Source: a virus. From it: a stretch of DNA of 49,136 nt. The translations under genes were made by a program, and so were the position numbers. A model generated the notes under the pieces. It worked only from the letters and a program-made list of their open reading frames with translations. It did not search any database and was not told the origin of the DNA. Of the stretch, positions 13,585 through 45,438 are shown one piece after another (positions within the stretch are counted from its first letter, which is position 1; the number at the start of each line of letters is the position of its first letter). The stretch covers positions 1 to 49,136 of IMG/VR virus record IMGVR_UViG_3300047560_000929; one strand, 5' to 3'.

Positions 13585-14177
13585 CAATTATTTTTACTGA
13601 TACTGATTTTATGACAGTTAGAGAGCTTGAAACTGAGACTGGTTGGCCTCTTGACTGGACTTCCACCAAAGGTCTTAGCCCATACATTAAGAGATTGAAG
13701 GGTGATGTTGTTGGTATTGAAATTGGCACCTGCCGAGCAGAAAGTACCTATCTCATCCTTGATGAATGTCAGAATGTGAAGAAGATTTATACTATCGATC
13801 CTTTCGAATCTTATGAAGATTGGTGTGGTGGTATTGATCAGACTACAATGGATAAGTTTGAGGCTATCGCTAAAGAAAACCTTAGCAAGTTTGGTGATAG
13901 GGTTGAGATGGTCAAGAAATCTTCTGTAGATGCTTTAGATACTTTTGAAGATGGTAAAGCAGATTTCGTATTCATTGATGGTGATCATTCGTATGAAGCC
14001 ACATATAATGATCTCTGCAACTACTATCCTAAACTCCGTGCTGGTGGGCTTTTCTCAGGGCATGACTATAATCTTCATGAGGTAAAGAAGGCTATTGCCG
14101 ACTTCAGAGAGAAGTTTAAGGTTAGAATACCCATTCAGATGTCTATTAACAACGTCTGGTTCTGGTATAAGGCATGA
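13581..14177 (+). CDS. SAM-dependent methyltransferase (class I, Methyltransf_24-like)
   Basis: 198 residues. Motif I reads VVGIEIGTCRAESTYLI, motif II IYTIDPFES, and ADFVFIDGDHSYEATYNDL is typical of the Methyltransf_24/cephalosporin-hydroxylase-like group. It probably methylates a sugar made by the cassette. It overlaps both neighbours by 4 bases (ATGA). Confidence 0.82.
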   Translation: MTIIFTDTDFMTVRELETETGWPLDWTSTKGLSPYIKRLKGDVVGIEIGTCRAESTYLILDECQNVKKIYTIDPFESYEDWCGGIDQTTMDKFEAIAKENLSKFGDRVEMVKKSSVDALDTFEDGKADFVFIDGDHSYEATYNDLCNYYPKLRAGGLFSGHDYNLHEVKKAIADFREKFKVRIPIQMSINNVWFWYKA

Positions 14178-17247: not shown

Positions 17248-18233
17248 GGGTTCTCGTTACCGGTTCTGAAGGCAGCCTCATGCAGGCTGTAATACCAAAA
17301 CTAATCGATCAGGAATATGAAGTTGTTGGTGTTGACAACCTTGTTCGCTATGGTGAAAGGCTTGGTCGTGCTGGTGAAAATTATACTTTTGTGAAAGGTG
17401 ATTTGACTGATAGAGACTTTGTTAGCGTTCTTATGCGAGAACACAAGCCTCATCTTATCATTCAAGCGGCCGCTCGCATCTATGGCATAGGAGGTTTCAA
17501 TAGATATTGTGCTGACATTCTTGGGGAAGATATTACTCTACATAATAATATTCTTAAATCTGCTATTGATAATGGCGTCGAAAGAGTAGCCTATATTTCA
17601 TCTAGTATGGTCTACGAAAAGTGTGTGCAAGATGTGAATGTGCCTGTGACAGAAGATATGCCATTTGAGAATCTTGCTCCATTCACTGATTATGGTCTGA
17701 GCAAGTTTACTGGTGAGAGATTGTCTATGGCTTTCTCCAAGCAGTATGGTTTGGAATATACAATCTGGCGACCTTTCAATATTATTACACCATACGAGCG
17801 TTCTGAAGGTGAGATTGGAACATCACACGTTTTTGCCGACTTCATTAAGAACATTGTTCTGAATAAGTTGACTACCTTGCCTATCATTGGTGATGGATCT
17901 CAGATCAGATGCTTTACATGGATTGATGATGTGGCTGATGCTATTGCTTATCATTCATTTGATGAGATGACGCGCAATGAAATCTTCAATCTTGGTAATC
18001 CAGAACCAATTAGAATGACAAAGCTTGCTGAAATCATTCATGAGGAAGCTATGGAAATGGGACTGATACAGCCTTCTACTCTTGACTTTAAGACAGTTAG
18101 AAAGTATAATGATGATGTTTTGGTTCGTATTCCTAACGTGAATAAAGCCGATCTATATTTTGGCTGGAGAGCTGAAAGATCGGTAAGAGATAGTGTTAGG
18201 GAATGCCTGAGAGGTATTGCTAATGAATTATAA
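17244..18233 (+). CDS. NAD-dependent nucleotide-sugar epimerase/dehydratase (extended SDR)
   Basis: 329 residues. The Rossmann start is VLVTGSEGSLMQ (the usual TGxxGxxG is degenerate after the first glycines). Catalytic Ser in SSSMVYE, YGLSK supplies Tyr and Lys, and RPFNIITPYE is the substrate-loop motif. It works on a nucleotide sugar; epimerase, dehydratase or reductase cannot be decided here. Confidence 0.83.
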   Translation: MRVLVTGSEGSLMQAVIPKLIDQEYEVVGVDNLVRYGERLGRAGENYTFVKGDLTDRDFVSVLMREHKPHLIIQAAARIYGIGGFNRYCADILGEDITLHNNILKSAIDNGVERVAYISSSMVYEKCVQDVNVPVTEDMPFENLAPFTDYGLSKFTGERLSMAFSKQYGLEYTIWRPFNIITPYERSEGEIGTSHVFADFIKNIVLNKLTTLPIIGDGSQIRCFTWIDDVADAIAYHSFDEMTRNEIFNLGNPEPIRMTKLAEIIHEEAMEMGLIQPSTLDFKTVRKYNDDVLVRIPNVNKADLYFGWRAERSVRDSVRECLRGIANEL

Positions 18234-18807
18234 TTTTGTTCAAAGCGATAAGATAATTATAGATATTGGTTCAGGCCCACATCCAAAGCCTGATGCTACA
18301 GTTCTTATGGATGTTCACGAATGGCCTGGTGTAAGCGTCAAGCACGATCTTCATAACCTACCATATCCATTTCCTGATAATCATGCTGACAAAATTTATC
18401 TGGGCGATGTGATTGAACATCTTGTCTATCTGGCTGCACCACTAGTTCTCAAAGAGATACATCGTATTCTAAAGCCTGGTACTTATGTTGAGATTACTTG
18501 CCCAGATATGCTTTGGATCATGGAGCGTATTGTAAAGGGTGATTGGAAAGAAAAGACAGAAGGTATGGACTGGCTAAACATTCACGAAGATCCATGGGAT
18601 AATGCTATGGACTATATGTATGGCGGCTGGAGACATCCAGAAGAATTTAAAATTCCTGGTATGGGCCACATAAACGGTTTCTCTGAACAGTCTCTAACAA
18701 AGATGCTGCTTGATGCTGGCTTTGATAAGGTTGAGAGAGTACCAGATGAAAGAAACCCTGAAGGTGGTAGAGATGCTGTCCTCAAATTGCTTGCATGGAA
18801 AAATTAA
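18223..18807 (+). CDS. SAM-dependent methyltransferase (Methyltransf_11-like)
   Basis: 194 residues from the ATG at 18223 (an in-frame TTG lies two codons upstream). IIIDIGSGPHPKPDA is motif I, ADKIYLGDVIEHL and EIHRILKPGTYVEI are motifs II/III. Likely a sugar methyltransferase of the cassette. It overlaps the epimerase by 11 bases and the carbamoyltransferase by 1. Confidence 0.82.
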   Translation: MNYNFVQSDKIIIDIGSGPHPKPDATVLMDVHEWPGVSVKHDLHNLPYPFPDNHADKIYLGDVIEHLVYLAAPLVLKEIHRILKPGTYVEITCPDMLWIMERIVKGDWKEKTEGMDWLNIHEDPWDNAMDYMYGGWRHPEEFKIPGMGHINGFSEQSLTKMLLDAGFDKVERVPDERNPEGGRDAVLKLLAWKN

Positions 18808-20423
18808 TGTGGATTGAAACACCAGAACTATCTAAAAATCTACCAAACTTAGCCATACATGGGTCACATAATGCCTCTGTTGTTGTTGAAATTGGTGGTG
18901 AGATACTTGAAATCATAGAGTTCGAAAGGTTCTTCAATCAAAAGAACATTGGGTATTGCCAGTATATGGTGGCAGGTTCGCGTAAGTATGCGGCCGAATT
19001 GATACTTAAATATATCGAAAACAAATATAGTATATTCCAATTTGATAAGGTTCTGCACCAGCATTGCGAATCAAACGATGATGTGTTCACAACCGAAGTT
19101 CAGAAATACGAATACTATAAATTATTTCCTGCAAACGAATATCATGAGATGAAGCATCACGAGGCTCATGCCGCTGGTGCTTTCTATCAATCACCATATG
19201 ATGATGCTATAGCTGTATCATTCGATGGTGGTGGTAATGATGGTTTCTTTAACATCTATCGCTGTAATAGGGAAAATGGTCTAGCTCTTATCGAAAAGTT
19301 TGATATTGACCTTGGTTTTCCATATATGGTCTTTGGTGATTATATCAAAGATATTCGTAGAGAACCATCATTATCAATAGGTAATCTTGTTTATGCTGGT
19401 AAGATACTTGGCTATCAGTCATATGGTCAATGTGTACCTGAATGGTATGATGCTTTCAAAGAGTTTTATCTAGCCAAACCTAGAGGTCCTACCTATGAAA
19501 GTCTACTCGACATTCTAGGTGAAAAGATTGGTCTAAAGTTTGATGGTGATAATCGCTTCGAAGGTGAGACAGCTTATAATGTAGCTGCTACCTCACAAAA
19601 AGTATTTGAAGACCTGTTCTTTGAAATTGCTGGCATGATACTATATAAGTATCAACTACCAATCTGTCTTGCTGGTGGTTGTGCTTTGAATATTGTTCTC
19701 AATACTAGAATTAGAAATGAGTTAAAACTGCCAGTCTTTGTTGGGCCTGCACCTAGTGATTGTGGTATTGCCACAGGCATGATGCTACATTGTTTGAAGC
19801 CAACTGTGCAATATGATGTTTCATATCTAGGTATACCGGCTGTTGATAAGTATATGCTGCCTAGAGAGATTGAAAAGAGGCGAGGTGAACGTGTATCTGT
19901 TGATTGTATAGTCAACGATCTATATGCCGATAAGATTATTGGTGTTGTTCAATCTAACTCTGAGCATGGGCCTCGTGCGCTCGGCAACCGTAGCATTATC
20001 TGTTCACCTCTCAATCCTAATATGAAAGACATATTGAACGCTAAGGTCAAAGACAGAGAGTTTTATAGGCCATTTGCACCTATCGTTAAGTTAGAAAATG
20101 TGTCAGAATATTTCGAATGGAATGAAAGCAGTGAGTTCATGTCTTTCTGCCCAAAAGTAAAAGATAAGTATAGAGATGTTCTACCATCAATCACTCACGT
20201 TGATGGTACAGCTAGGGTTCAGACCATTACTGAAAAGAAGAACCCATTGCTATATCGTATGCTAACTCTTTTTGAAGAAAGAACCGGTGTTGGTGTTCTT
20301 ATCAACACAAGCTTTAATCTGAACGGTAAACCTATTCTATCATCTTATGCTGATGCCTTTGAGGTGTTTGATAAGACGCAGATGGATTGCCTATATCTTG
20401 ATGGATTCTATTTTACAAAATGA
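18807..20423 (+). CDS. O-carbamoyltransferase, NodU/CmcH/TobZ family
   Basis: 538 residues from the ATG at 18807 (TAATG); an ATG at 18795 is possible. The N-terminal Kae1-like domain carries GSHNAS and the metal-binding KHHEAHAAGAFY; DGGGNDG and GGCALN follow; the C-terminal YrdC-like region has HGPRALGNRSI and LINTSFNLNGKPI. The family forms carbamoyl-adenylate from carbamoyl phosphate and ATP and transfers the carbamoyl group to a sugar hydroxyl, as on Nod factors and tobramycin. A carbamoylated glycan is the inferred product. Confidence 0.9.
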   Translation: MWIETPELSKNLPNLAIHGSHNASVVVEIGGEILEIIEFERFFNQKNIGYCQYMVAGSRKYAAELILKYIENKYSIFQFDKVLHQHCESNDDVFTTEVQKYEYYKLFPANEYHEMKHHEAHAAGAFYQSPYDDAIAVSFDGGGNDGFFNIYRCNRENGLALIEKFDIDLGFPYMVFGDYIKDIRREPSLSIGNLVYAGKILGYQSYGQCVPEWYDAFKEFYLAKPRGPTYESLLDILGEKIGLKFDGDNRFEGETAYNVAATSQKVFEDLFFEIAGMILYKYQLPICLAGGCALNIVLNTRIRNELKLPVFVGPAPSDCGIATGMMLHCLKPTVQYDVSYLGIPAVDKYMLPREIEKRRGERVSVDCIVNDLYADKIIGVVQSNSEHGPRALGNRSIICSPLNPNMKDILNAKVKDREFYRPFAPIVKLENVSEYFEWNESSEFMSFCPKVKDKYRDVLPSITHVDGTARVQTITEKKNPLLYRMLTLFEERTGVGVLINTSFNLNGKPILSSYADAFEVFDKTQMDCLYLDGFYFTK

Positions 20424-22114
20424 AGAAGAACAACTTTACATTAGTGACAGGTCTGTGGGATCTTGGTCGTGATAAGCTTTCTGATTTTGGTCGTTCATTT
20501 GATCATTATCTAGGCTGCTTTGATAAGCTTCTCAGTCTTCCATATAACATAGTTGTGTGGGTACCTGAATCCCTAAACTCTTACATATCTGTTCGTCGCA
20601 GTTCTATGAACACCAGAATCTTCAACAAAGAGCTAGAAGATTTTGAGAAGTGGTTTGAATACTATGACACGGTGCAGAAGATAAGGCAGGATCCTGAATG
20701 GTATAATCAGGCCGATTGGCTATCTAAATCTCCTCAGGCCAAACTGAAGTATTATAATCCTATCGTTATGTCGAAGTTCTTTATGGTGAATGATACGACG
20801 ATACACAATCCTTTTGGTAGTGATTATTTCTTTTGGATTGATGGTGGTCTAACCAATACTGTACCTATCGAAACTATTGCTAATGTAGAGAAGCTGCCTT
20901 GGTATATGAAAGAGATAGACGATAAGTTTTTGTTTCTTTCTTTCCCTTATGAAACTCAAAGCGAGGTTCATGGATTCAAGGCTGATAAGTTCAACGAATA
21001 CTGCGGTGAGAAATCACAGTATGTATGCCGAGGTGGTTTCTTTGGCGGCCATAAGAGTAAAATAAACTCTCTCAATGGTGAATATATCTCATGTATGAAA
21101 TCTTCTCTGAACGAAGGTTTTATGGGCACGGAAGAGAACTATCACACCATACTAGCATATAAGAATCCAGATATTATTCATAGATTTGAATTGGAATCTA
21201 ATGGGTTAGTCTATAAGTTCTTTGAACATCTTGGCACCATCGACAACACCGAGAGAAACAACACAACCATCATACCATACAAGAAGACAAAGAACATAGA
21301 AGATATTAAGACTTCTCTTTATGTTCTGACATATAATAGCCCAGATCAATTCAAGGCTCTTGTAGAATCTTATCTGTATAGTGATCCAGATTTTATTAGT
21401 ATGACGAGAAAGATATTGGTAGACAACTCTACCGATTACTCACACTATCAGAGATACAATGATCTCTGCAAGAAGTATGATTTCGAGCATATCAAGAAAG
21501 AAGAGAATATAGGTATCTGTGGTGGTCGACAGTTTGTGGCCGAACACTTCAATGAATCCGACAGTGAGTATTACATCTTTCTTGAAGATGATATGACATT
21601 ACATACACCTATAACAGCGATATGCGGTCAAGGTTATGAAACATATACCGATCAACTCTATCGCAAATCTCTTGCCATTATACACAAAGAACGATATGAT
21701 TTTCTGAAGCTCACATTCTCTGAGTTTTATGGATCGAATGATGTTCAGTGGGCATGGTATAATATACCTCAGACTATCAGAGATGAATTTTTCCCTGATC
21801 ACCCAAATCTTCCTGAAGAGGGTTTTGGAGATGATGTGCCTAAGATTATACCAACAAAGAAGAAGAGATATAAAGGGCTATCATACTTTGAAGGTGAATA
21901 TTACTACTGTAACTGGCCTCTTTGGGTTTCTCGCGCAGGCAATAGAAAGATATTCTTGGATATAAAATGGAACAGACCATACGAACAAACATGGATGAGC
22001 AACGTCTTTCAGCTTCAGAAGAAAGGCTTAGTGAGATCGGCAGTTTTAGGTTTGAGCCCTATCAATCACGTCCGATTCGACTATTATCCAGCAGAAGATC
22101 GGATAGAATCGTGA
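20420..22114 (+). CDS. Two-domain glycosyltransferase (HtrL/YibB-like plus GT2-like)
   Basis: 564 residues. The first ~280 residues begin FTLVTGLWDLGRDKL and contain YFFWIDGGL, matching HtrL/YibB (WlaTC-like) proteins. From about residue 300 a second domain begins (TSLYVLTYNSPDQFKALVES) with EENIGICGGRQF and the metal site YIFLEDDMTLH of GT2 enzymes. The fusion could add two successive sugars. It overlaps both neighbours by 4 bases. Confidence 0.75.
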   Translation: MKKNNFTLVTGLWDLGRDKLSDFGRSFDHYLGCFDKLLSLPYNIVVWVPESLNSYISVRRSSMNTRIFNKELEDFEKWFEYYDTVQKIRQDPEWYNQADWLSKSPQAKLKYYNPIVMSKFFMVNDTTIHNPFGSDYFFWIDGGLTNTVPIETIANVEKLPWYMKEIDDKFLFLSFPYETQSEVHGFKADKFNEYCGEKSQYVCRGGFFGGHKSKINSLNGEYISCMKSSLNEGFMGTEENYHTILAYKNPDIIHRFELESNGLVYKFFEHLGTIDNTERNNTTIIPYKKTKNIEDIKTSLYVLTYNSPDQFKALVESYLYSDPDFISMTRKILVDNSTDYSHYQRYNDLCKKYDFEHIKKEENIGICGGRQFVAEHFNESDSEYYIFLEDDMTLHTPITAICGQGYETYTDQLYRKSLAIIHKERYDFLKLTFSEFYGSNDVQWAWYNIPQTIRDEFFPDHPNLPEEGFGDDVPKIIPTKKKRYKGLSYFEGEYYYCNWPLWVSRAGNRKIFLDIKWNRPYEQTWMSNVFQLQKKGLVRSAVLGLSPINHVRFDYYPAEDRIES

Positions 22115-22866
22115 AGCATTTCGTCGTGACAGGTGCCAGTGGTTACATTGGTTCTCATATGTGCTATGAATTACGACAGGCTTATCCTGATTGTAAGATT
22201 ACAGCCATAGATATGGTTTTAAAAAACAAATTAGTTCACCTCTACGATGAATTTTATATACACGATCTATCTAAAACACAGATGTCCGTCTTGCATGATA
22301 AACCTGATTGTGTATTTCATTTTGCATCTTTAGCTTCTGTTCCTGAAGGTGAAGAAAATCCATATCTATATTACTATAATAACATTAACAGTTCTATTAA
22401 ATTGATCGATGAAGCCATCTATTATGGTGTTAAAAACTTCATCTTCTCTAGTTCTTGTGCTGTATATGGTTCGGTTAATGGGTTCATAAACGAAAGTGTG
22501 ACCAAGAATCCGCAGAGTGTGTATGCGAAGACTAAGAGTATTGTAGAAGATATACTGCTTGCAGCCGAGTTGAAAGGTGTCAGGCCAGGTATTCTTAGAT
22601 ACTTTAATGCAGCAGGTAGGAATGTTGAGGCTGGACTATACGAAGAACATGAGCCTGAAACACACCTCTTGCCAAATATAATGAAGTCCGATACCATTAA
22701 GATATATGGTAACGATTATAATACTCCAGATGGTACGGCTGTTAGAGACTATATACATGTGGTAGATATATGTCAGGCTCATATCAGAGCATATGAATAT
22801 ATGGAACAGAATGATAAAGGAATTATCTGTAACTTAGGAACAGGTAAAGGGTTCTTGACATTGTGA
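22111..22866 (+). CDS. GalE-like nucleotide-sugar 4-epimerase, frameshifted before its C-terminus
   Basis: 251 residues from the GTG at 22111, which overlaps the previous stop; the longer upstream frame (from 21967) lies wholly inside the previous gene. Rossmann motif VTGASGYIGSH, SSSCAVYG and the catalytic YAKTK are intact, followed by RYFNAAG and AVRDYIHVVDI. The frame stops right after NLGTGKG, where GalE proteins normally have about 60 more residues. Those residues are present in another frame (22851-23030). Either a mutation, a sequencing error or a recoding site; activity is doubtful if the product ends here. Confidence 0.8.
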   Translation: MKHFVVTGASGYIGSHMCYELRQAYPDCKITAIDMVLKNKLVHLYDEFYIHDLSKTQMSVLHDKPDCVFHFASLASVPEGEENPYLYYYNNINSSIKLIDEAIYYGVKNFIFSSSCAVYGSVNGFINESVTKNPQSVYAKTKSIVEDILLAAELKGVRPGILRYFNAAGRNVEAGLYEEHEPETHLLPNIMKSDTIKIYGNDYNTPDGTAVRDYIHVVDICQAHIRAYEYMEQNDKGIICNLGTGKGFLTL

Positions 22867-35937: not shown

Positions 35938-36014
35938 GGTCACTTAGCTCAGCCGGATAGAGCAACAGCCTTCTAAGCTGTGGGTCGAGGGTTCGAATCC
36001 TTCAGTGATCGCCA
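35938..36014 (+). tRNA. tRNA-Arg (TCT)
   Basis: Seven-pair acceptor (GGTCACT/AGTGATC), anticodon loop CTTCTAA, T loop TTCGAAT, CCA encoded. Confidence 0.93.
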
Positions 36015-36031
36015 TTCTTTAGAGGATTATA

Positions 36032-36208
36032 ATGAAAAACATTTCACATAAGTTGGATGCTTGGCTCGACAAGAAGAACCCTTGGTTGACTGTCGAGAAT
36101 CCTAATAAGAATGAAACGAATAAGCGTTTTATCAAGGTTCGCGCTAATGAATACTTGGGGCTTCCTGAGCCTAAGAAGGAAAAGAGTAAAGATAAAGAGC
36201 CCGTGTAG
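36032..36208 (+). CDS. Small basic protein ending inside a tRNA gene
   Basis: 58 residues, Lys/Asn-rich (KLDAWLDKKNPWLTVENPNK). AGAGGA precedes the ATG. The TAG stop is bases 8-10 of the downstream tRNA-Leu. Function unknown. Confidence 0.6.
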   Translation: MKNISHKLDAWLDKKNPWLTVENPNKNETNKRFIKVRANEYLGLPEPKKEKSKDKEPV

Positions 36209-36275
36209 GCCAATCGGTAGAGTCGGGAGACTTAAAATCTCCACAGTGTCGGTTCGAGTCCGACCGCGGGCACCA
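36199..36275 (+). tRNA. tRNA-Leu (TAA), short variable loop
   Basis: Acceptor GCCCGTG/CGCGGGC, anticodon stem GGAGA/TCTCC around CTTAAAA, T loop TTCGAGT, CCA encoded. The variable loop is only 5 bases although bacterial tRNA-Leu normally has a long arm, and the D stem pairs poorly. Confidence 0.8.
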
Positions 36276-36279
36276 ATTT

Positions 36280-36355
36280 GTTCCTGTAGCTCAATGGTTA
36301 GAGCCGACCGCTCATAACGGCCTGGTTGGGGGTTCGAGTCCCTCCGGGAACACCA
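36280..36355 (+). tRNA. tRNA with CAT anticodon (Met or Ile2)
   Basis: Acceptor GTTCCTG/CCGGGAAC with full pairing, anticodon loop CTCATAA, T loop TTCGAGT, CCA encoded. Position 11 is C, so it is not an initiator; CAT could also be modified to read AUA. Confidence 0.85.
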
Positions 36356-36470
36356 AGCTATATCGTCTGTAGTGGTTCGAAACGCTACTTTCGAGAATAC
36401 ACCTCAGCCCTGCGCTATCGGGGAATGTTAAAAGACAAGGTGGGGTAAAAGCCCTCAGATAGTGGAGAAT
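36356..36470 (+). ncRNA. Unclassified structured RNA candidate A
   Basis: About 115 bases between two tRNAs with no ORF. Two clear stems: 36369-36374/36383-36388 (GTAGTG/CGCTAC) and 36413-36419/36458-36464 (CGCTATC/GATAGTG), the latter enclosing a GGGGTAAAAGCCC hairpin. Not a cloverleaf. Confidence 0.4.
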
Positions 36471-36472
36471 TT

Positions 36473-36563
36473 GGAAGTGGGTGTTGGTACACGGGAAGGT
36501 CTTATAAACCTTTAGCGCCTGATTAGCGTTTTCCATAGAGTTCGAATCTCTACACTTCTACCA
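36473..36563 (+). tRNA. tRNA-like gene with long variable arm, anticodon TAT
   Basis: Acceptor GGAAGTG/CACTTCT (first pair G-T), anticodon stem AAGGT/ACCTT around CTTATAA, T stem TAGAG/CTCTA with TTCGAAT, CCA encoded. The variable region is about 23 bases, as in Leu/Ser/Tyr tRNAs, but TAT reads Ile AUA. The D arm is short. Confidence 0.65.
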
Positions 36564-36564
36564 C

Positions 36565-36593
36565 TTGACAAGCGTAAAAAGATACTATATACT
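36565..36593 (+). promoter_or_regulatory. Promoter TTGACA-N17-TATACT between tRNAs
   Basis: TTGACA starts one base after the preceding tRNA's CCA. It drives the small gene at 36619 and following tRNAs. Confidence 0.7.
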
Positions 36594-36618
36594 ACCTGTA
36601 ATGATGAGGAGAGAAAAG

Positions 36619-36771
36619 ATGTTCAAGGTAACTTTCGATTACAAAGCAAAGGACGGCTTTCTCACTCAAGGAGAAATGTTCTTTGATACGATGAAGTCTG
36701 CGTTTGAGTGTATAAATACACTATGCAAGAATTTCAAGTTGGTGGGTAAGCCTACTATTGAACGAGTATAA
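36619..36771 (+). CDS. Hypothetical small protein
   Basis: 50 residues from the ATG at 36619 (GAGGAGA upstream): FKVTFDYKAKDGFLTQGEMF and a helical end. Beta-then-alpha layout. No family recognised. Confidence 0.6.
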   Translation: MFKVTFDYKAKDGFLTQGEMFFDTMKSAFECINTLCKNFKLVGKPTIERV

Positions 36772-36778
36772 GAGTTGA

Positions 36779-36869
36779 TGGCAGGCGGCAACGACGGTGG
36801 TGTTGCAGCAGACTGTAAATCTGTTCCCTAAGGGTAACAATGGGGGTTCGAATCCCTCCCTGCCAACCA
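36779..36869 (+). tRNA. tRNA-Tyr (GTA)
   Basis: Acceptor TGGCAGG/CCTGCCA, anticodon loop CTGTAAA, long variable arm, T loop TTCGAAT, CCA encoded. Confidence 0.92.
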
Positions 36870-36873
36870 ATAT

Positions 36874-36950
36874 GGCCCGTGGGTCTGCATGGTGAAGACA
36901 CTCGCCTGTCACGCGAGAAATGAGGGGATCGTTACCCCTACGGGTCGCCA
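36874..36950 (+). tRNA. tRNA-Asp (GTC)
   Basis: Acceptor GGCCCGT/ACGGGTC, anticodon stem CTCGC/GCGAG around CTGTCAC, CCA encoded. The T loop is ATCGTTA, with A54 and T58 instead of T54 and A58. Confidence 0.9.
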
Positions 36951-36955
36951 TTTTT

Positions 36956-37032
36956 GCCTATTGGGAGGTTTTGGCAATCTCGCTGTCCTCATAAGACAGT
37001 TCAAGTTGGTTCGATGCCAACATTAGGCACCA
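36956..37032 (+). tRNA. tRNA with CAT anticodon (Met or Ile2)
   Basis: Acceptor GCCTATT/ATTAGGC with a T-T mismatch at pair 6, anticodon stem CTGTC/GACAG around CTCATAA, T stem GTTGG/CCAAC with TTCGATG, CCA encoded. Confidence 0.82.
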
Positions 37033-37033
37033 T

Positions 37034-37157
37034 GTTTCTACACGGGCATACCGGAGCGTGAGTTATCGGAAAGCTTGCTAGGCTGCTCAGTCCACTTAAC
37101 AGGCCTTAATTAGTGGTGGTGATAGCAGTTAGATAGCCGGTATGTCTTTGTAGAAAC
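37034..37157 (+). ncRNA. Unclassified structured RNA candidate B
   Basis: About 124 bases between tRNAs. Closed by GTTTCTACA/TGTAGAAAC (37034-37042 with 37149-37157) and CATACCGG/CCGGTATG (37047-37054 with 37137-37144), with inner stems CTGCT/AGCAG and CCACT/AGTGG. A multibranch RNA with no ORF. Confidence 0.55.
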
Positions 37158-37159
37158 GT

Positions 37160-37206
37160 GTTATAAAATGTCTATGATTACACTACTATTGTAGACATTT
37201 TATAAC
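37160..37206 (+). repeat. 15-bp perfect inverted repeat
   Basis: Bases 37160-37174 pair perfectly with 37192-37206, loop of 17 bases. AT-rich; lies between structured RNA B and tRNA-Pro. Could be a processing hairpin or a terminator-like stop. Confidence 0.7.
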
Positions 37207-37212
37207 ATTTAA

Positions 37213-37289
<77 letters not shown>

Positions 37290-37293
37290 ATTG

Positions 37294-37369
37294 GCCGCTT
37301 TGGTGAAGGTGGTACTCACGCCTGCCTGAAGAGCAGGAGAACCTGGATCGTAACCGGGAGGCGGCACCA
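37294..37369 (+). tRNA. tRNA-Phe (GAA)
   Basis: Acceptor GCCGCTT/AGGCGGC, anticodon stem CCTGC/GCAGG around CTGAAGA, CCA encoded. T loop ATCGTAA (A54, T58). Confidence 0.9.
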
Positions 37370-37370
37370 C

Positions 37371-37444
37371 ATCGGTGTGATGTAATGGTAACATGACGGT
37401 CTCCAAAACCGTTCTTCTGGGTTCGAGTCCTAGCACCGGTGCCA
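37371..37444 (+). tRNA. tRNA-Trp (CCA)
   Basis: Acceptor ATCGGTG/CACCGGT, anticodon stem ACGGT/ACCGT around CTCCAAA, T loop TTCGAGT, CCA encoded. Confidence 0.9.
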
Positions 37445-37457
37445 TATATAAGAATAC

Positions 37458-37541
37458 GGAGGTATGCGAGCAAGGTGCTCAAACGGTCTTGAAAACCGTG
37501 CCACCGCAAGGTTGATGGTTCGATTCCTTGTACCTCCGCCA
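37458..37541 (+). tRNA. tRNA-Ser (TGA)
   Basis: Acceptor GGAGGTA/TACCTCC, anticodon stem ACGGT/ACCGT around CTTGAAA, long variable arm, T loop TTCGATT, CCA encoded. Confidence 0.92.
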
Positions 37542-37548
37542 AGTTTAT

Positions 37549-37624
37549 TTCTCGGTAGCTCAGTTGGTAGAGCGGGTGACTGTTAATCACTAGGTCCGTG
37601 GTTCGAGCCCACGCCGAGGAGCCA
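37549..37624 (+). tRNA. tRNA-Asn (GTT)
   Basis: Acceptor TTCTCGG/CCGAGGA, anticodon loop CTGTTAA, T stem CGTGG/CCACG, CCA encoded. Confidence 0.92.
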
Positions 37625-37628
37625 AATT

Positions 37629-37704
37629 GGTCCGTTAGCTCAGTGGAAGTAGCAACTCCTTTACACGGAGAAGGTCGGCAGTTCAACCCTGTCACGGACT
37701 ACCA
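37629..37704 (+). tRNA. tRNA-Val (TAC)
   Basis: Acceptor GGTCCGT/ACGGACT, anticodon stem with CTCC/GGAG around TTTACAC, T loop TTCAACC, CCA encoded. Confidence 0.92.
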
Positions 37705-37708
37705 CATC

Positions 37709-37797
37709 GTAATGTATCTGGTCCCAGTCGCCTGGAATGGGATAAAAGTTTGTAGCGAAAGTTGCCCACTACAATGGGACGTTGCCAGATACATTAC
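37709..37797 (+). ncRNA. Unclassified structured RNA candidate C
   Basis: Closed by a 13-bp perfect stem (37709-37721 with 37785-37797). Inside, TCCCA/TGGGA and TTGTAG/CTACAA stack on one side, with a 20-base bulge on the other. CCCA and TGGG can also pair locally, so two folds are possible. Lies between tRNA-Val and tRNA-Lys. Confidence 0.6.
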
Positions 37798-37808
37798 TAC
37801 CATCATAT

Positions 37809-37884
37809 GGACCGTTAGCTCAGTTGGTAGAGCTGCTGACTCTTAATCAGTAGGTCGGGGGTTCGACTCCCTCACGGTCTACCA
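37809..37884 (+). tRNA. tRNA-Lys (CTT)
   Basis: Acceptor GGACCGT/ACGGTCT, anticodon loop CTCTTAA, T stem GGGGG with TTCGACT, CCA encoded. Last of array 1; a minus-strand gene reads into it. Confidence 0.93.
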
Positions 37885-38147: not shown

Positions 38148-38585
38148 TTGAGAACATTATTATCTTTCATACTAATTTGTTTTTCATCATTTGCTTTAGC
38201 AAACGATATACAATTTCAATTCAACTCACCTGCATTTAACGGAAGCGGATATACTGCACATGTTACTAGCATCTATCAGCTAGAACAGGCCAACAAACAA
38301 AAGATTAAAGATAATGCGTCTTTAGCCAAAGCTGAAGAGGCCGCTAAAGCTGCATCTGATCCTATTAATCAATTTGTTATGACATTAAATTCGATGGTAT
38401 ATCAGCAACTATCACAGCAAGTAACAAATTCTATTTTTGGTGATGGTGTCGATCATGGCATTATCACTTTTGGTGCGACAACTATTTCATGGCAAAAAAA
38501 CCTCAACGGTACAGTCACAGTCACTACTGTTACTCCAAACGGTAGAACTGAATTGATTGTGCCGAATACTACATTTGTTCAATAA
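38148..38585 (+). CDS. CsgF-like curli assembly factor
   Basis: 145 residues from the TTG at 38148, chosen because it follows TTGGAG and gives a clean signal peptide (RTLLSFILICFSSFALA). The mature start NDIQFQFNSPAFNGSG corresponds to the TFQFRNPNFGGNP of E. coli CsgF, the part that plugs into the CsgG pore. INQFVMTLNSMVYQQL matches the following helix, and the C-terminal strands (GTVTVTTVTPNGRTELI) match the neck. It is predicted to be periplasmic or surface-exposed, and to help a curlin-like substrate leave through CsgG. Confidence 0.82.
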   Translation: MRTLLSFILICFSSFALANDIQFQFNSPAFNGSGYTAHVTSIYQLEQANKQKIKDNASLAKAEEAAKAASDPINQFVMTLNSMVYQQLSQQVTNSIFGDGVDHGIITFGATTISWQKNLNGTVTVTTVTPNGRTELIVPNTTFVQ

Positions 38586-38594
38586 GGTAAGCAC

Positions 38595-39389
38595 ATGAGA
38601 AAGATATTTGCCGCACTATGTTGTCTGGCTCTGGCAGGTTGTGCATCAACATCAAGATACTCTGAAAAAGGTCGAATTGTTGAACAGCCAAAGGTTGTCA
38701 ATCCAGATTTCTTTAAGAGAGAAGAGAACAAAGTTAAACCACCAAAAGATGGTAAGATAACGGTTAGCGTATATAATTTCAAAGACCAGACAGGTCAGAG
38801 AAAACCAAATGATAAGCTGGCTGTGTTCTCCTCTGCGGTGACACAAGCACCTGATGCTTACCTAGTCAAAGCATTGCAAGATGTAGGTGATGGTAAATGG
38901 TTCCGTGTTATTGAGCGTGGTGATATTGACAATCTGATAAAAGAACGACAGCTAATCAAGTCTATGCGTGACCTATATGAAGGTGACAAAGCAAAGCCAC
39001 TTGATCCGTTATTGTTTTCTGGTTTGTTAATTCAAGGTGGTGTAATTGGATATGATTCCAATATACAAAGTGGTGGTGTTGGTGTAAGAGTATTTGGTAT
39101 TGGTCCAAATAGTCAATACAGATCCGACCTTGTCACAGTGAATTTGAGAGTTGTATCGGTAAATACTGGAGAAGTTTTGTTAAGTGTTACTACTACCAAG
39201 ACCATATTGAGTTTTGGTGATAGTGTTAGTGCCCTTAGATTTATTGATGCCGGTACCATGAGTGTAGAAGGCGAGGCTGGATACTCTGTCAATGAGAGTG
39301 TAAATCTGGCCACACAGAGGGCGATAGAGGCTGCTGTTGTTGAAATGGTTAAACAGGGTGAAAAGAAAGGCTTCTGGAAATCCAAATAA
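38595..39389 (+). CDS. CsgG-like outer-membrane lipoprotein secretion channel
   Basis: 264 residues (E. coli CsgG 277). Signal peptide with lipobox LAGC at the end of ALCCLALAGC. The CsgG domain follows: KITVSVYNFKDQTGQRKPND, FRVIERGDIDNLIKERQL, LLFSGLLIQGGVIGYDSN, VTVNLRVVSVNTGEVLLSV. CsgG forms a nonameric pore that exports curli subunits. AAGG precedes the ATG. Confidence 0.92.
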   Translation: MRKIFAALCCLALAGCASTSRYSEKGRIVEQPKVVNPDFFKREENKVKPPKDGKITVSVYNFKDQTGQRKPNDKLAVFSSAVTQAPDAYLVKALQDVGDGKWFRVIERGDIDNLIKERQLIKSMRDLYEGDKAKPLDPLLFSGLLIQGGVIGYDSNIQSGGVGVRVFGIGPNSQYRSDLVTVNLRVVSVNTGEVLLSVTTTKTILSFGDSVSALRFIDAGTMSVEGEAGYSVNESVNLATQRAIEAAVVEMVKQGEKKGFWKSK

Positions 39390-39404
39390 ACAACGGGGGA
39401 ATAA

Positions 39405-40067
39405 ATGAAGAAAATATTACTAGCTATCTTTATGATACTAGCAACTGCGGGCACATGTTTAGCACAGAATACAATTTATCTGAAACAGATTGGTTCATCA
39501 TCAACAATCCTACTTGAACAGTTGGGAAGCAACAATGCTATTGGTTCACCAACGACCTATTCATCAAGCACTGGTGACACCAATGATATTACTGTAAAAC
39601 AAACAGGTAGCAGCAACATCCACAATTTTGCTATACTTGGTTCAGGTAACAAATATAGTTCTATAATCAATGGTGACTCAAACCAATTCACATTGAATTG
39701 TGGTGATGTCATTGTATCTTGTATGAACACTGAAATTGCCGAAACTGTCACAGGCAATCTAAACATAGTGAGTCAGACAATCAAAGGTCAGAATATCAAA
39801 TCAACTCTGGCCATTACTGGTACATCAAACCAGGTTACAACAAGCATATCTCAATCTAATTCAACGAGCAATATCTCCATCACAGGAGATGCGAACAATG
39901 TGAACTCAACTATGAATGCCGTAGGTGGTACAGGCAGCACTCTGGACATTAATATACTTGGTGGCTCAAACACAGTATTAACAACACAGGGTGGTACTAT
40001 TGACAGCACAGTTAAGTTGCAGGTCACTGGCACTTCTAATAATATTACTGTTCATACCGGAAACTAG
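39405..40067 (+). CDS. Secreted curlin-like repeat protein
   Basis: 220 residues. Signal peptide (about 1-21, ending CLAQ). The mature part is low-complexity, N/S/T/G/Q-rich, with imperfect repeats of the curlin type xQxGxxNxxxxxQ: IYLKQIGSSSTILLEQLGSN, ITVKQTGSSNIHNF, then spaced GSGN, GDSN, GTSN, GDANN and GGSN turns. It is the probable substrate of the CsgG channel, an amyloid or beta-helical fibre subunit. Two Cys flank a less regular stretch in the middle. Confidence 0.8.
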   Translation: MKKILLAIFMILATAGTCLAQNTIYLKQIGSSSTILLEQLGSNNAIGSPTTYSSSTGDTNDITVKQTGSSNIHNFAILGSGNKYSSIINGDSNQFTLNCGDVIVSCMNTEIAETVTGNLNIVSQTIKGQNIKSTLAITGTSNQVTTSISQSNSTSNISITGDANNVNSTMNAVGGTGSTLDINILGGSNTVLTTQGGTIDSTVKLQVTGTSNNITVHTGN

Positions 40068-40974
40068 TCTAGCTGAAATAGGCAAAATCCGAACACTTGA
40101 AGGTCCTTCAGTTTCAATCAAGCGAAACAAGGATGTATTAGAAGGCGGTAAAGGCGCAGACATTGAATCGATGGACACCGTAGAGACTAAAAACTCTACG
40201 GTGGATATTTCGTTTAAAGATGATACGAAGGTTATGATCAAAGAGAACTCAAAGCTCTTGATTGATGATTTCGTATTTAATCCTAACCAATCAGGCGGTA
40301 AACTAGGGCTTAAGGTAGGTTTTGGTACGGTCAGATATGCCTCAGGCCAGATTGCACATGCTAATCCACAAGCCGTAGATATTCAGACACCAACTGCTAC
40401 TATTGCGGTTCGTGGTACTGATTTCAATATGACCGTCGATGAGATAGGAAGAAGTCTTGTTGTTCTTGTGCCTAGCTGCCAAGGAACCAGATGTGTGACA
40501 GGTAAGATTGAGGTTACATCACTATCAGGCACAGTGGTACTGGATCAACCATATACAGCCACATATGTTTCACAAGCTACACAAGCACCAATTCAGCCAG
40601 TTAAAATATCAAATATCACCGATAAGCAGATAAATAACTTGCTGATTGTTGCTGTACCAAAAGAAGTGAGAATGGCTCTACATGATAGGGCCGAATCGCA
40701 GAAAGCCAAGCAAGAATCTGATCAAATAGAAAAAGAACAAATATCTATACAGAATAAGAAAGAACAGAAGCAAGAAGCCACACCAGTTATTATTGTAGAG
40801 AAAAAGAATGGTAATACTCTGGCCAGAACTGAGAATGATGTGAATAACTACTTCACTATCGATTTTGGTCAAAATGGTAATGCTTCTATTGAGTTGCAGA
40901 GAAATAAAGAAATTAATTCGGCTAAGATTGGTGATGGTGGATCATCTAGAATAATCATAAGGCAATCGAAATGA
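39991..40974 (+). CDS. FecR-domain secreted protein
   Basis: About 327 residues from a GTG at 39991 (TTG at 40000 also possible). The start lies inside the curlin-like gene; the overlap of 77 bases encodes a signal peptide (LALLIILLFIPETSLA) in another frame. The FecR domain spans about 30-165: SVSIKRNKDVLEGGKG, STVDISFKDDTKVMIKENS, VDIQTPTATIAVRGTDF. A Cys pair (PSCQGTRC) and a Lys/Glu/Gln-rich C-terminal half follow. FecR-domain proteins are paired with CHASE2 cyclases in many alphaproteobacteria, as here. Confidence 0.85.
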   Translation: MVLLTAQLSCRSLALLIILLFIPETSLAEIGKIRTLEGPSVSIKRNKDVLEGGKGADIESMDTVETKNSTVDISFKDDTKVMIKENSKLLIDDFVFNPNQSGGKLGLKVGFGTVRYASGQIAHANPQAVDIQTPTATIAVRGTDFNMTVDEIGRSLVVLVPSCQGTRCVTGKIEVTSLSGTVVLDQPYTATYVSQATQAPIQPVKISNITDKQINNLLIVAVPKEVRMALHDRAESQKAKQESDQIEKEQISIQNKKEQKQEATPVIIVEKKNGNTLARTENDVNNYFTIDFGQNGNASIELQRNKEINSAKIGDGGSSRIIIRQSK

Positions 40975-43043
40975 TGGAAACAATAGGCAAATACCTTACT
41001 AGCACATGGGCAGCTCTTGTTAGCGTTTGCCTTTTGGTGGCTCTCTATGTCTACAATCCAAGCCCTATTCAGACGTTACAGTTGAAGACGTTTGACTATC
41101 TTATCACATCTTTGCCTTCTAAACAATCTAAAGAAGTGGTCATCGTAAACTTTGGTGAGAAATCCGTAGAGAAGTTTGGTCAGTGGCCTTTTGATCGCAG
41201 AGATATAGCTAATACAATTCAGAAGTTGAAAGATAACGGTGCTTTGATGGTCGTAGCACCAATACTCTTTTCAGAAAAGGATAGAGCTGGTCATGACGAT
41301 GAACTCACAAAACAACTCGAAGGTGTTGTCCTCGCCCAAGTCCCAACCACACAAAACAACCGACCAGATAGCGTCCGTCGTGGTTTTGCTGCTATTGGTC
41401 CTATTGACCCTGCCAGTTCTGTGTATCGTTGGCCTGGCGGATTACGACCTCTTGACCAGTATGCCGCCGCTGCCGAAGGAGTTGGTGTGGTCGCAACAGT
41501 TCCTGAGGTGGATGGTGTCGTTCGCCGTATGCCTCTGGTCGTTTCTATTGCAGGTAATCTGTATCCGTCTATACCTCTTGAGTCTATCAGAGTTGCTGCG
41601 GGCGATCCATCCTATCAAATAAAGACGAATGAATTTGGTATTGAGGCTGTAAGAGTACCTGCATTTCCTGCCATTAAAACAGACGAGCGTAGCCGTATAT
41701 GGATGAGTTGGAATAATAAGTTTCAAACATTCGATGCTACAGATGATGATGCAAAGATAGATGGTGACATTAGAGAAAAGATTGTTGTTCTTGGATTGAC
41801 TATCGAAGGTGTGGGCGGCATAATAGCCACACCTCTAGGTGAGAAATGGGCCGGTGAAGTTCAGGCTCAGGCTCTTCAAACTATGGTTGATGGTACTTCT
41901 ATTTCCCGTTCATCAGAATCACGAATACTAGAAGGGATAGCACTAGTAGGAATCCTACTCCTATTGCTTTATATAGTTCCAAAACTGTCTGTAATGTTGA
42001 CGGTGCCAATATATATCACTTTCATTGGTGGATTATCATATGCCTCATACTACTTATTCAAAACCGATTTGCAACTATGGGATGCAAGCTATATCATTCT
42101 TGCTGGCACTTTCGTATATGGGCACCTTGTATTCAATAACTTTGCTCGCGAGTTTAGGCTAAAGCAACAGATCAAGAAACAGTTTGGCACATATCTATCA
42201 CCAGCACTAGTTGAGAAACTTCAGAAGAATCCAGAGCTACTAAAACTAGGTGGTGAAACTCGTGAACTATCAATTATGTTCACAGACGTTCGTGGGTTCA
42301 CTACAATATCAGAACACTATGGTGCAGACGTTCAAGGTCTTACTCAAATCATGAACCGTTATATGACGGCCATGACTGCTAAGATACTTGAGAACAACGG
42401 CACATTAGATAAGTATATTGGTGATGCTCAGATGGCTTTCTGGAACGCACCTCTAGATGATAAGGAACATGCGAAACACGCAGTAAAAACAGCATTGGAG
42501 ATGTTAGGTGACTTGGAAAAATTCAACAGAGAAATTTCTAGTGAAGGTGTTCCTGCTTTTGGTATGGGGCTTGGTATTAATACGGGCAGTGTGGTGGTGG
42601 GAAACATGGGATCTTCTCAAAGATTCGATTATACTTGTCTCGGTGATTCTGTTAACCTTGCATCACGCCTTGAAGGGCAATCAAAGCCCTACCATGTCAA
42701 GCTCGTTATTGGGCAAAGAACATATGAATTAGTGAAAGACGACTATCTATGTCTAGAGCTTGATTGTCTTGCAGTTAAAGGTAAGACAGAGGGTGTAAAC
42801 ATTTACACTATCGTACCTAAGAATGGTCTAAACATAGCATATTCTCGCACACATAAGCAGTTCATTGAAGACTATCGCGCACAGAGATGGGCAAAGTGTG
42901 ACGAGGCCTTCAAATATCTTGAGACCGCATTTGGTGGTGATATGAAAGATTATTATGAAATGATGAAAGAGAGAATAGAGGACTACAGAAAGAATCCTCT
43001 ACCGAGAGATTGGGATGGAATATATCGTACCAACACCAAGTAA
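40971..43043 (+). CDS. CHASE2-domain class III adenylate/guanylate cyclase
   Basis: 690 residues. N-terminal membrane helix (about 12-30), periplasmic CHASE2 sensor domain (about 35-310; FDRRDIANTIQKL and DGVVRRMPLV segments), three membrane helices (about 322-395), then a class III cyclase domain from about 430. Both metal aspartates are present (FTDVRGFT, KYIGDAQMAFW), Lys in LDKYIGD and Asp/Thr in FDYTCLGDSVNLASRLE are as in adenylate cyclases, and Asn/Arg of the transition-state pair are in NLASRLE. The enzyme should therefore be active, more likely making cAMP than cGMP. It overlaps fecR by 4 bases. Confidence 0.93.
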   Translation: MMETIGKYLTSTWAALVSVCLLVALYVYNPSPIQTLQLKTFDYLITSLPSKQSKEVVIVNFGEKSVEKFGQWPFDRRDIANTIQKLKDNGALMVVAPILFSEKDRAGHDDELTKQLEGVVLAQVPTTQNNRPDSVRRGFAAIGPIDPASSVYRWPGGLRPLDQYAAAAEGVGVVATVPEVDGVVRRMPLVVSIAGNLYPSIPLESIRVAAGDPSYQIKTNEFGIEAVRVPAFPAIKTDERSRIWMSWNNKFQTFDATDDDAKIDGDIREKIVVLGLTIEGVGGIIATPLGEKWAGEVQAQALQTMVDGTSISRSSESRILEGIALVGILLLLLYIVPKLSVMLTVPIYITFIGGLSYASYYLFKTDLQLWDASYIILAGTFVYGHLVFNNFAREFRLKQQIKKQFGTYLSPALVEKLQKNPELLKLGGETRELSIMFTDVRGFTTISEHYGADVQGLTQIMNRYMTAMTAKILENNGTLDKYIGDAQMAFWNAPLDDKEHAKHAVKTALEMLGDLEKFNREISSEGVPAFGMGLGINTGSVVVGNMGSSQRFDYTCLGDSVNLASRLEGQSKPYHVKLVIGQRTYELVKDDYLCLELDCLAVKGKTEGVNIYTIVPKNGLNIAYSRTHKQFIEDYRAQRWAKCDEAFKYLETAFGGDMKDYYEMMKERIEDYRKNPLPRDWDGIYRTNTK

Positions 43044-43047
43044 GATA

Positions 43048-43488
43048 TTATTTTTTAGTATCTTTCTTGTCTGGCTGATTGCTGGGTTGTTGCTCTGGGT
43101 TCTTTATGGTAATGTGATCTATTTCGATAGTACTACCATGATGCTTCGCTGCTAGTTCCTCGGCGGCCTTGACTTGTTTCTCAGCCGCTTCTAGTTCTCG
43201 CTTCTGAGCTTTCGAAGCCGTTTCTACGTCATGTAGATGGCGCTCAGACTCAATTTCTTTACCACGCAACTGTAGAACGATGTTGATCTTCTGGTTCAGA
43301 CGAATCAGGTCGTTGTCTAACATACGAATACGATCAATCAAAGCAATAAGAACGGTGTTGGCTTCTGATAGAACAGGTTTAACCTCTACTGTAGCCCACA
43401 CCCACACATAATAAATCAGATAACCCATACCAGCTGCGGCTACTATGGGAAATCCATATTTGTTAATTAGTTCTGCTACATCAGCCAT
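43048..43488 (-). CDS. Holin-like/YvrJ-like small membrane protein with coiled coil
   Basis: 146 residues from the ATG at 43488. One N-terminal membrane helix (KYGFPIVAAAGMGYLIYYVW), a coiled coil with conserved IALIDRIRMLDNDLIRLNQ, and a long charged tail with an acidic/Gln-rich end. It is a paralogue of the gene at 44120 (same GFP-A-A...GY helix and ALDxR...NHDxIR coil). It ends 5 bases from the cyclase stop on the other strand, with no terminator between them. Confidence 0.7.
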   Translation of the reverse strand: MADVAELINKYGFPIVAAAGMGYLIYYVWVWATVEVKPVLSEANTVLIALIDRIRMLDNDLIRLNQKINIVLQLRGKEIESERHLHDVETASKAQKRELEAAEKQVKAAEELAAKHHGSTIEIDHITIKNPEQQPSNQPDKKDTKK

Positions 43489-43585
43489 TTGCAAAATCCA
43501 TTGCTACAAGTAAGACAAGACCAAAACAAATCATAACCATTGCATATACAGTATATGTTATAAGCTTGATTACATCCATAACCAT
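43481..43585 (-). CDS. Very small membrane protein
   Basis: 34 residues (ATG at 43585; 43579 also possible). One membrane helix (YTVYAMVMICFGLVLLVAM). It begins inside the end of the DUF4337-like gene and its TGA overlaps the ATG of the next gene, a translational-coupling arrangement that supports it. Confidence 0.55.
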   Translation of the reverse strand: MVMDVIKLITYTVYAMVMICFGLVLLVAMDFANG

Positions 43586-44106
43586 AGGCCTTGGGTCATC
43601 AATAGAACGCCGATTGCCATAACACCAAAGCTACCCCAGAACATTGCCGAACTCACGGCAACAATAGAGGCGGATACTAAGACAATGGCCATCTGCATCG
43701 TAGAACCAGCGAATGAGATCCATGGAGATTTCTTTTTAGCAAGGTCGCGCTCGGCTTCAAGAGCCTGAGCCTTTGCCATTAGTTCTTTCTTACCTTCGCC
43801 TGTTGCAGGATCAGATTCGTAACGAGCGGCTGTAGCTCTGTGCTGTTCAGCTTTTGCTTTATCGCCACGGGCTGCCGCTTCTTCGGCTGAATTTTCAATT
43901 ACAGTTTGCTTAATTGATTTGGCCTGATAGAATGACCATGTATCATTGGCTTTGATTGTATTAGTGAGAATTGTGCCGCTGAGACCATTGCCAATGTAAG
44001 TATTAAATGCTAGTATTAGCGCAAATACAGAGATCACGAAGCCGGCTTTATCTTTGATAATGGCTTCACGTTCACTTCTAGATAGGGGTTTTGGTGCGTC
44101 CGACAT
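43570..44106 (-). CDS. DUF4337-like membrane protein
   Basis: 178 residues. A helix after a basic head (AGFVISVFALILAFNTY), NDTWSFYQAKSIKQTV, a charged coil region (KAKAEQHRATAARYESDP) and two C-terminal membrane helices. This is the pattern of DUF4337 proteins, found in bacteria and T4-like phages, function unknown. AAGGAG precedes the ATG on the minus strand. Confidence 0.72.
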   Translation of the reverse strand: MSDAPKPLSRSEREAIIKDKAGFVISVFALILAFNTYIGNGLSGTILTNTIKANDTWSFYQAKSIKQTVIENSAEEAAARGDKAKAEQHRATAARYESDPATGEGKKELMAKAQALEAERDLAKKKSPWISFAGSTMQMAIVLVSASIVAVSSAMFWGSFGVMAIGVLLMTQGLWLWM

Positions 44107-44451: not shown

Positions 44452-44525
44452 GCTTCCTTAGCTCAATGGGAGAGCAAACGACTGATAATCGTTAGACACT
44501 GGATCGTAACCAGTAGGAAGCACCA
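44452..44525 (+). tRNA. tRNA-Ile (GAT)
   Basis: Acceptor GCTTCCT/AGGAAGC, anticodon loop CTGATAA, CCA encoded. T loop ATCGTAA (A54, T58). Confidence 0.9.
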
Positions 44526-44526
44526 T

Positions 44527-44602
44527 TCGGGGTTAGTTCAATTGGTAGAACTACGGACTTTGAATCCGTGTGTTGGTGGTTCGAGCCCATCACCCCGAGC
44601 CA
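44527..44602 (+). tRNA. tRNA-Gln (TTG)
   Basis: Acceptor TCGGGGT/ACCCCGA, anticodon stem ACGGA/TCCGT around CTTTGAA, T loop TTCGAGC, CCA encoded. Confidence 0.92.
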
Positions 44603-44611
44603 GAGATTTCT

Positions 44612-44687
44612 GGACCCTTAGCTCAATAGGTAGAGCAACGGTCTTTTAAACCGCAGGTCGTGGGTTCGAATCCCGCAGGGTCTACCA
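44612..44687 (+). tRNA. tRNA-Lys (TTT)
   Basis: Acceptor GGACCCT/AGGGTCT, anticodon loop CTTTTAA with CGGT/ACCG, T loop TTCGAAT, CCA encoded. Confidence 0.92.
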
Positions 44688-44692
44688 AATTT

Positions 44693-44770
44693 CCTCCGTT
44701 AGTGTAGCGGTCAAACATACCCGCCTTTCAAGCGCGGAGATCATCGGTTCAAATCCGATACGGAGGACCA
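44693..44770 (+). tRNA. tRNA-Glu (TTC)
   Basis: Acceptor CCTCCGT/ACGGAGG, anticodon loop CTTTCAA, T stem ATCGG/CCGAT, CCA encoded. Confidence 0.9.
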
Positions 44771-44775
44771 AGTAT

Positions 44776-44850
44776 GCCACATTCGTCTATCGGTTAGGAC
44801 ATTAGGTTCTCAACCTAGTAAGAGCGGTTCGATTCCGCTATGTGGTACCA
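44776..44850 (+). tRNA. tRNA-Glu (CTC)
   Basis: Acceptor GCCACAT/ATGTGGT, anticodon loop TTCTCAA, T loop TTCGATT, CCA encoded. Confidence 0.9.
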
Positions 44851-44856
44851 GTATAT

Positions 44857-44930
44857 TGGGGAATAGTTAAGTGGTATAACAGCGGACTCTGACTCCGTTA
44901 TCTGAGGTTCGAATCCTTGTTCCCCAGCCA
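44857..44930 (+). tRNA. tRNA-Gln (CTG)
   Basis: Acceptor TGGGGAA/TTCCCCA, anticodon loop CTCTGAC, T loop TTCGAAT, CCA encoded. Confidence 0.9.
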
Positions 44931-44944
44931 ATCTGAGGTATATC

Positions 44945-45145
44945 ATGCGAAAGAGTAAACTTGCTGACTTGTGGTTCGATGAGTTTGTCGTGAAGAACTT
45001 ATGCGGTCTGTGTGGAAATCATGGCTTCATTGATACCAGAAATAAGGTCAAGTCACCTGCTGGTACTGAATGTGGTGGAGTTTTCTATTGCATATGTCCA
45101 AACGGTAGAGCCCTTAAAAAGCATCAAGTAAAGGTGCCTGAGTAG
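44945..45145 (+). CDS. Small Cys-rich protein ending inside tRNA-Cys
   Basis: 66 residues. CGLCGNHGFIDTRNK and a later C-x-C-P pattern suggest a small zinc site. Rhizobial genomes contain similar proteins. The last 13 bases, with the TAG stop, lie inside tRNA-Cys. Confidence 0.65.
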   Translation: MRKSKLADLWFDEFVVKNLCGLCGNHGFIDTRNKVKSPAGTECGGVFYCICPNGRALKKHQVKVPE

Positions 45146-45207
45146 GATGTTAATGCGCGGGTCTGCAAAACCTTGAGAACCCGGTTAGATTCCGGGAGGC
45201 ACCTCCA
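45133..45207 (+). tRNA. tRNA-Cys (GCA)
   Basis: Acceptor GGTGCCT/AGGCACC, anticodon loop CTGCAAA, CCA encoded. T loop TTAGATT, with A in place of the usual C56. Confidence 0.85.
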
Positions 45208-45221
45208 AAAAAGGATAGAAT

Positions 45222-45371
45222 ATGGTTAAAAGCCCATCTTATGGTGCTGGTAATGTTAATATGAAAGGGAAAAAATACAAGCTCAGGCATTGTAAATGTT
45301 GCTGGTGTCTCGATCTGCGCGACAGAGAACTGAAGAAAGAGCATCTGAAAGAAATGAAAACGGCCAGTTAG
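45222..45371 (+). CDS. Small basic Cys-rich protein ending inside tRNA-Arg
   Basis: 49 residues with a CKCCWC cluster and a charged helix (LDLRDRELKKEHLKEM). AAGGA precedes the ATG. The TAG stop is bases 8-10 of the downstream tRNA-Arg. Confidence 0.6.
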   Translation: MVKSPSYGAGNVNMKGKKYKLRHCKCCWCLDLRDRELKKEHLKEMKTAS

Positions 45372-45438
45372 CTCAACTGGATAGAGCATCGGTCTACGGA
45401 ACCGAGGGTTAAGGGTTCGAATCCTTTACTGGCCGCCA
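45362..45438 (+). tRNA. tRNA-Arg (ACG)
   Basis: Acceptor GGCCAGT/ACTGGCC, anticodon loop CTACGGA with CGGT/ACCG, T loop TTCGAAT, CCA encoded. Confidence 0.92.

Follow-up and report, generated by a model that had tools for sequence, protein, structure and literature searches.

A complete CHASE2 class III cyclase gene at the end of a phage curli/FecR cassette

The virus record IMGVR_UViG_3300047560_000929, whose full 49,136 nt were analyzed and are called the window here, carries a CHASE2 class III cyclase gene that has a complete active site, is under purifying selection, and is the last gene of a curli/FecR cassette. We favor, at a probability of roughly 0.6, the reading that this gene encodes a membrane adenylyl cyclase acting as the output end of the cassette, which would sense the periplasm and signal by cAMP through a host receptor.

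Domains and active site of the cyclase

The cyclase gene (40971..43043, + strand) encodes 690 amino acids without an internal stop, and the cyclase span of the first-pass annotation (42260-42830), which was made from the DNA letters, falls within this single frame. The protein matches phrog_35576 over its full length (1.2e-215). In Pfam, a CHASE2 domain (residues 21-332; 41031..41966, +; CHASE2, 1.1e-36), predicted to be periplasmic, is followed by three predicted membrane helices (residues 317-338, 341-366, and 373-405; 41919..42185, +), the last of which extends into the linker, and then by the class III catalytic domain (residues 431-613; 42261..42809, +; Guanylate_cyc, 1.7e-20), also recognized by Foldseek. 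Membrane topology was deduced from hydropathy together with the helices of an AlphaFold2 model of the whole protein (mean pLDDT 87.1, with a weak loop at 547-552). The modeled catalytic domain has the class III nucleotidyl cyclase fold and matches Pseudomonas aeruginosa CyaB (3r5g) with a TM-score of 0.89 over the target (Foldseek).

All six catalytic residues are present and align with those of CyaB and Spirulina CyaC (1wc1), which share the catalytic fold with the window protein and, unlike it, derive from cellular adenylyl cyclases. On the + strand these are the metal-binding Asp439 (42285-42287) and Asp485 (42423-42425), the adenine-reading Lys481 (42411-42413) and Thr555 (42633-42635), and the transition-state residues Asn562 (42654-42656) and Arg566 (42666-42668). 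The two Asp residues with the Asn/Arg pair are those of a class III enzyme, while Lys and Thr as adenine readers define the class IIIb adenylyl cyclases, to which the window protein corresponds. Thr at this position is thought to predict bicarbonate stimulation in sAC-like enzymes (PMC3383692). The first-pass annotation had thus read the two metal Asp residues, the Lys and Asp/Thr adenine readers, and the Asn/Arg pair correctly; the loss of a metal or transition-state residue, which it had named as the observation that would speak against it, is not seen in the alignment of the window copy.

Phage relatives were collected from IMG/VR (the best 80 kept per scan, the family being larger) and from GenBank phages, giving a conservation set of 127 phage sequences among the matches listed, i.e., the window and 126 relatives. 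Asp439, Lys481, and Asp485 are each found in 127 of these 127 sequences, in a sample that favors relatives keeping the Asp485 motif because some of the fetch patterns (DAQMAFWN and MAFWNAP) contain or adjoin it. Among the same listed matches, Arg566 is conserved in 125/125 sequences, Asn562 in 124/125 (Ser in phage Melnitz being the sole exception), and Thr555 in 123/126, the exceptions being Melnitz (Asp), HTVC008M (Ser), and one further sequence (Val). Random six-column sets from the conserved cyclase domain equaled the mean identity of the active site in 0.6% of draws. The dN/dS of the cyclase domain was 0.00 to 0.13 in 15 close pairs and, in most pairs, no higher than that of the CHASE2 domain, which is also under purifying selection. 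Near-invariant catalytic residues in the phage relatives and strong purifying selection on the domain make it probable that the window enzyme is active. The earlier view that the enzyme is catalytic and has not decayed has good support from its sequence, its conservation, and the selection acting on it. We also observed that residue 487 (42429-42431), which follows the GDA motif, is Gln in 125 of the 127 phage sequences among the matches listed, versus Ile or Val in bacterial relatives.

The curli/FecR cassette and its surroundings

Five genes on one strand, in the order csgF-csgG-curlin-fecR-cyclase, make up the cassette (window positions 38149-43043). The csgF-like gene (38149..38585, +; Pfam CsgF, 2.6e-13) is listed with a frame beginning at 38040, although its likely start is a TTG near 38149, which would open the signal peptide LRTLLSFILICFSSFALA. 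It is followed by csgG (38595..39389, +; Pfam CsgG, 1.8e-53), coding for the pore that secretes curli across the outer membrane; the protein has a lipoprotein-type signal (LALAGC) and 50 to 52% identity to the CsgG proteins of HTVC008M and Melnitz. The curlin-repeat protein (39405..40067, +; Pfam Curlin_rpt, 1.4e-4) is a candidate fiber subunit, and the DNA repeats of its gene are weak and degenerate. The gene for the FecR-domain protein (39991..40974, +; Pfam FecR, 3.2e-11), in which a signal peptide was read by eye, overlaps both the 3' end of the curlin gene and the 5' end of the cyclase gene.

Linkage was counted in the 76 phage loci, among the matches listed, that have at least 4 kb upstream of the cyclase. 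The cassette accompanies the cyclase in all 76 of these listed loci, and in 71 of them csgF, csgG, curlin, and fecR are all upstream on the same strand. Of the remaining listed loci, four lack only csgF and have csgG close to or at the end of the locus, and the fifth (L172) carries an inverted cassette adjacent to the cyclase. That every locus examined retains an intact cyclase alongside the cassette suggests selection for, among other things, cAMP output.

No histidine kinase was identified near the window csgF on its upstream side, where tRNA genes are found instead; a kinase in this position is universal only in the podophage set of PMC9599517. A search for a cassette promoter found sigma-70-like sites no more often than in shuffled sequence, and the closest T4-type late motif, 1.4 kb upstream, occurs at chance frequency.

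The record contains T4-like replication genes, namely, DNA polymerase, gp44 clamp loader, gp45 clamp, RecA-type recombinase, and DnaB-type helicase, and its polymerase is 51 to 52% identical to those of Synechococcus T4-like phages. These genes on the same contig, together with the position of the cyclase within one clade of phage cyclases, bear out the earlier description of the gene as phage encoded. ARAGORN found 24 tRNA genes in the record, and large tRNA clusters lie on both sides of the cassette (35938-37884 and 44452-45438). The ARAGORN tRNA SeC (tca) at 44693-44770 (+) is, judging from the anticodon loop, probably a Glu (TTC) tRNA shifted by one base. A surface-glycan cluster at 11873-22866 comprises glycosyltransferases, a GT10 fucosyltransferase, a UDP-glucose dehydrogenase, an epimerase, and a Nol-like carbamoyltransferase.

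Downstream of the cyclase, on the opposite strand, is a gene for a small protein (phrog_18771; 43048-43494, -) with one apparent membrane helix, a coiled coil, and no Pfam match, relatives of which occur in 91 phage cyclase loci among the matches listed. In some loci (Melnitz and HTVC008M) a gene of this type is located directly upstream of csgF, which is the position of the histidine kinase in podophages (PMC9599517, 2022). The small coiled-coil gene is adjoined by a DUF4337 gene (43570-44106, -), a relative of which was found in 9 of the first 84 sequences compared, with the window and its own sub-locus counted.

Proposed function and alternatives

A single N-terminal helix together with the three later helices would leave CHASE2 facing the periplasm and the catalytic domain facing the cytoplasm, in which a homodimer is predicted to convert ATP to cAMP. 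CsgG and CsgF would form an outer-membrane pore through which the curlin-repeat protein may pass, and the secreted FecR-domain protein would reside in the periplasm. CHASE2 may then read the state of FecR or of the pore and thereby control how much cAMP is made during infection. To act, this cAMP would require a receptor from the host, since a search of 20 related phage records, several of which are fragmentary, found no cNMP-binding domain (PF00027).

The first-pass annotation had proposed that the phage cAMP resets host carbon or envelope regulation. In this explanation, cAMP would act on a CRP-type regulator of the host to reprogram its carbon or envelope genes, and the adjacency of the curli genes would reflect no more than joint transfer. 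A complete active site is compatible with such a role, as is the absence of a receptor from the 20 phage records, which would make a host receptor the target. We nevertheless regard it as unlikely, because the csgF-csgG-curlin-fecR linkage is maintained in every phage locus with enough flank despite divergence to ~41 to 50% identity, and because purifying selection on CHASE2 fits a regulated rather than a constant output. Direct support for a reset of host regulation was not found; the constant neighbors are curli secretion, curlin-repeat, and FecR genes, so that a sensor tied to this apparatus is the better reading. What stands of the first-pass annotation is a phage-encoded and, judging from its residues, catalytic enzyme, and what does not is the free-standing host-control gene, the cassette context having gone unmentioned there. 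The constant linkage would also suit a cyclase that controls expression of the phage cassette itself, in the way that cAMP acts on the E. coli curli genes via CRP and CsgD, a precedent cited in PMC9599517, where self-regulation was proposed for pelagiphages. Neither CsgD nor a CRP-like protein was found with the cassette, however, and the promoter and late-motif searches stayed at shuffle and chance levels, which leaves this idea with a low probability.

Two further explanations concern the enzyme itself. The catalytic domain is matched by PycC models of PADLOC (4.8e-26 at best), as might be expected of a Pycsar-type pyrimidine cyclase or a decoy for a defense system, but these matches span only the shared class III fold, and CyaB matches better (8.8e-33, a rough comparison between different libraries). 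The Lys/Thr pair is moreover that of ATP-using enzymes, and no effector is found among the neighbors, the gene being flanked by those for FecR and the small coiled-coil protein without a Pfam match. We therefore rejected a PycC identity on the basis of substrate residues and gene context and consider it extremely improbable. A sensor or scaffold without catalysis, in which only the fold is kept, might be suspected from the Asn-to-Ser and Thr-to-Asp changes of Melnitz, as some relatives may be weak or dead. For the window copy this is very unlikely, given its six of six residues and a cyclase domain that evolves, in most pairs, under a dN/dS no higher than that of CHASE2.

Within the preferred reading of a periplasm-sensing cyclase at the output end of the cassette, it is tempting to go a step further, to a bacterial FecR-CHASE2 sensor that the phage joined to a curli operon, giving a virus-only circuit in which the building of the pore or amyloid fiber would set cAMP. 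We put this forward as a tentative and rather doubtful conjecture; if true, cAMP could, for example, time lysis or switch the host surface. Phage curli cassettes are common across the ocean and have no proven function, and cAMP offers a simple and directly measurable readout.

Relatives in bacteria and in cultured phages

Nearly all of the best 80 bacterial loci belong to Alphaproteobacteria; their cyclases show 33 to 38% identity at near full length and share the domain order of the window protein. FecR lies directly upstream of the cyclase in at least 22 of the 72 alphaproteobacterial loci with room for it (from the best 80); as the search profile derives from phage FecR, further cases may have escaped it. 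The FecR protein there is often very long. FecR beside a CHASE2 cyclase is thus a bacterial pairing as well. In contrast to the phage genes, the alphaproteobacterial CHASE2 cyclases of these best 80 loci have no csgG or csgF adjoining, and position 555, Thr in phages, is Ser in 73 of the 80. Curli passed our cutoff in 6 of 385 genomes, and none of these six alphaproteobacterial csg loci has both FecR and a cyclase beside it as a ready-made bacterial operon would; with neither gene at these loci, a functional link of curli with the cyclase is apparent in phages alone. In an unrooted tree, the phage sequences all fall on one side with a support of 100, which is compatible with, and does not prove, a single transfer.

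CHASE2 cyclases of Campylobacterota also cluster with a FecR-domain outer-membrane protein (PMC9239204). Sinorhizobium meliloti CHASE2 cyclases raise cAMP in response to a plant protein sensed via an outer-membrane beta-barrel protein (PMC13001267), a system that may serve as a parallel for outer-membrane-linked CHASE2 signaling.

Curli genes in phages were first reported for pelagimyophages (PMC7029224), and in 2022 a pelagiphage study described a phage curli (type VIII secretion) cassette containing FecR and adenylate cyclase and favored an alphaproteobacterial origin (PMC9599517). The window is therefore a further example and not a new kind. The gene order of the pelagiphage cassette (HTVC008M, pelagimyophages, and podophages) is that of the window, although only one curlin gene is recognizable in the window, and fecR is followed by the cyclase without a further curlin gene in between. 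The cyclase of HTVC008M shares 41% identity with the window protein but lacks most of the C-terminal tail and carries the Ser at position 555. The Methylophilales phage Melnitz (MZ577098), whose curli genes were described in PMC9004378 with the cyclase absent from the main text, has the same cassette with the cyclase last and two curlin genes versus one in the window; its cyclase is 45% identical over 96% of the protein, with Asp at the Thr555 position and Ser at that of Asn562. Replacement of the transition-state Asn suggests that activity may not be essential in every member. By their aligned residues, both cultured-phage cyclases are atypical members at the active site, and negative results obtained with them would not speak for the family.

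Literature searches found no match for jumbo phages with curli or for Pycsar active-site residues. The terms "active site," "catalytic," and "CHASE" are absent from the main text of PMC9599517, to which the residue audit and the CHASE2 reading therefore add. What is new here, relative to the known cassettes, is the audit of the active site, the Thr of phages where the sampled Alphaproteobacteria mostly have Ser, and the atypical nature of the cultured-phage versions.
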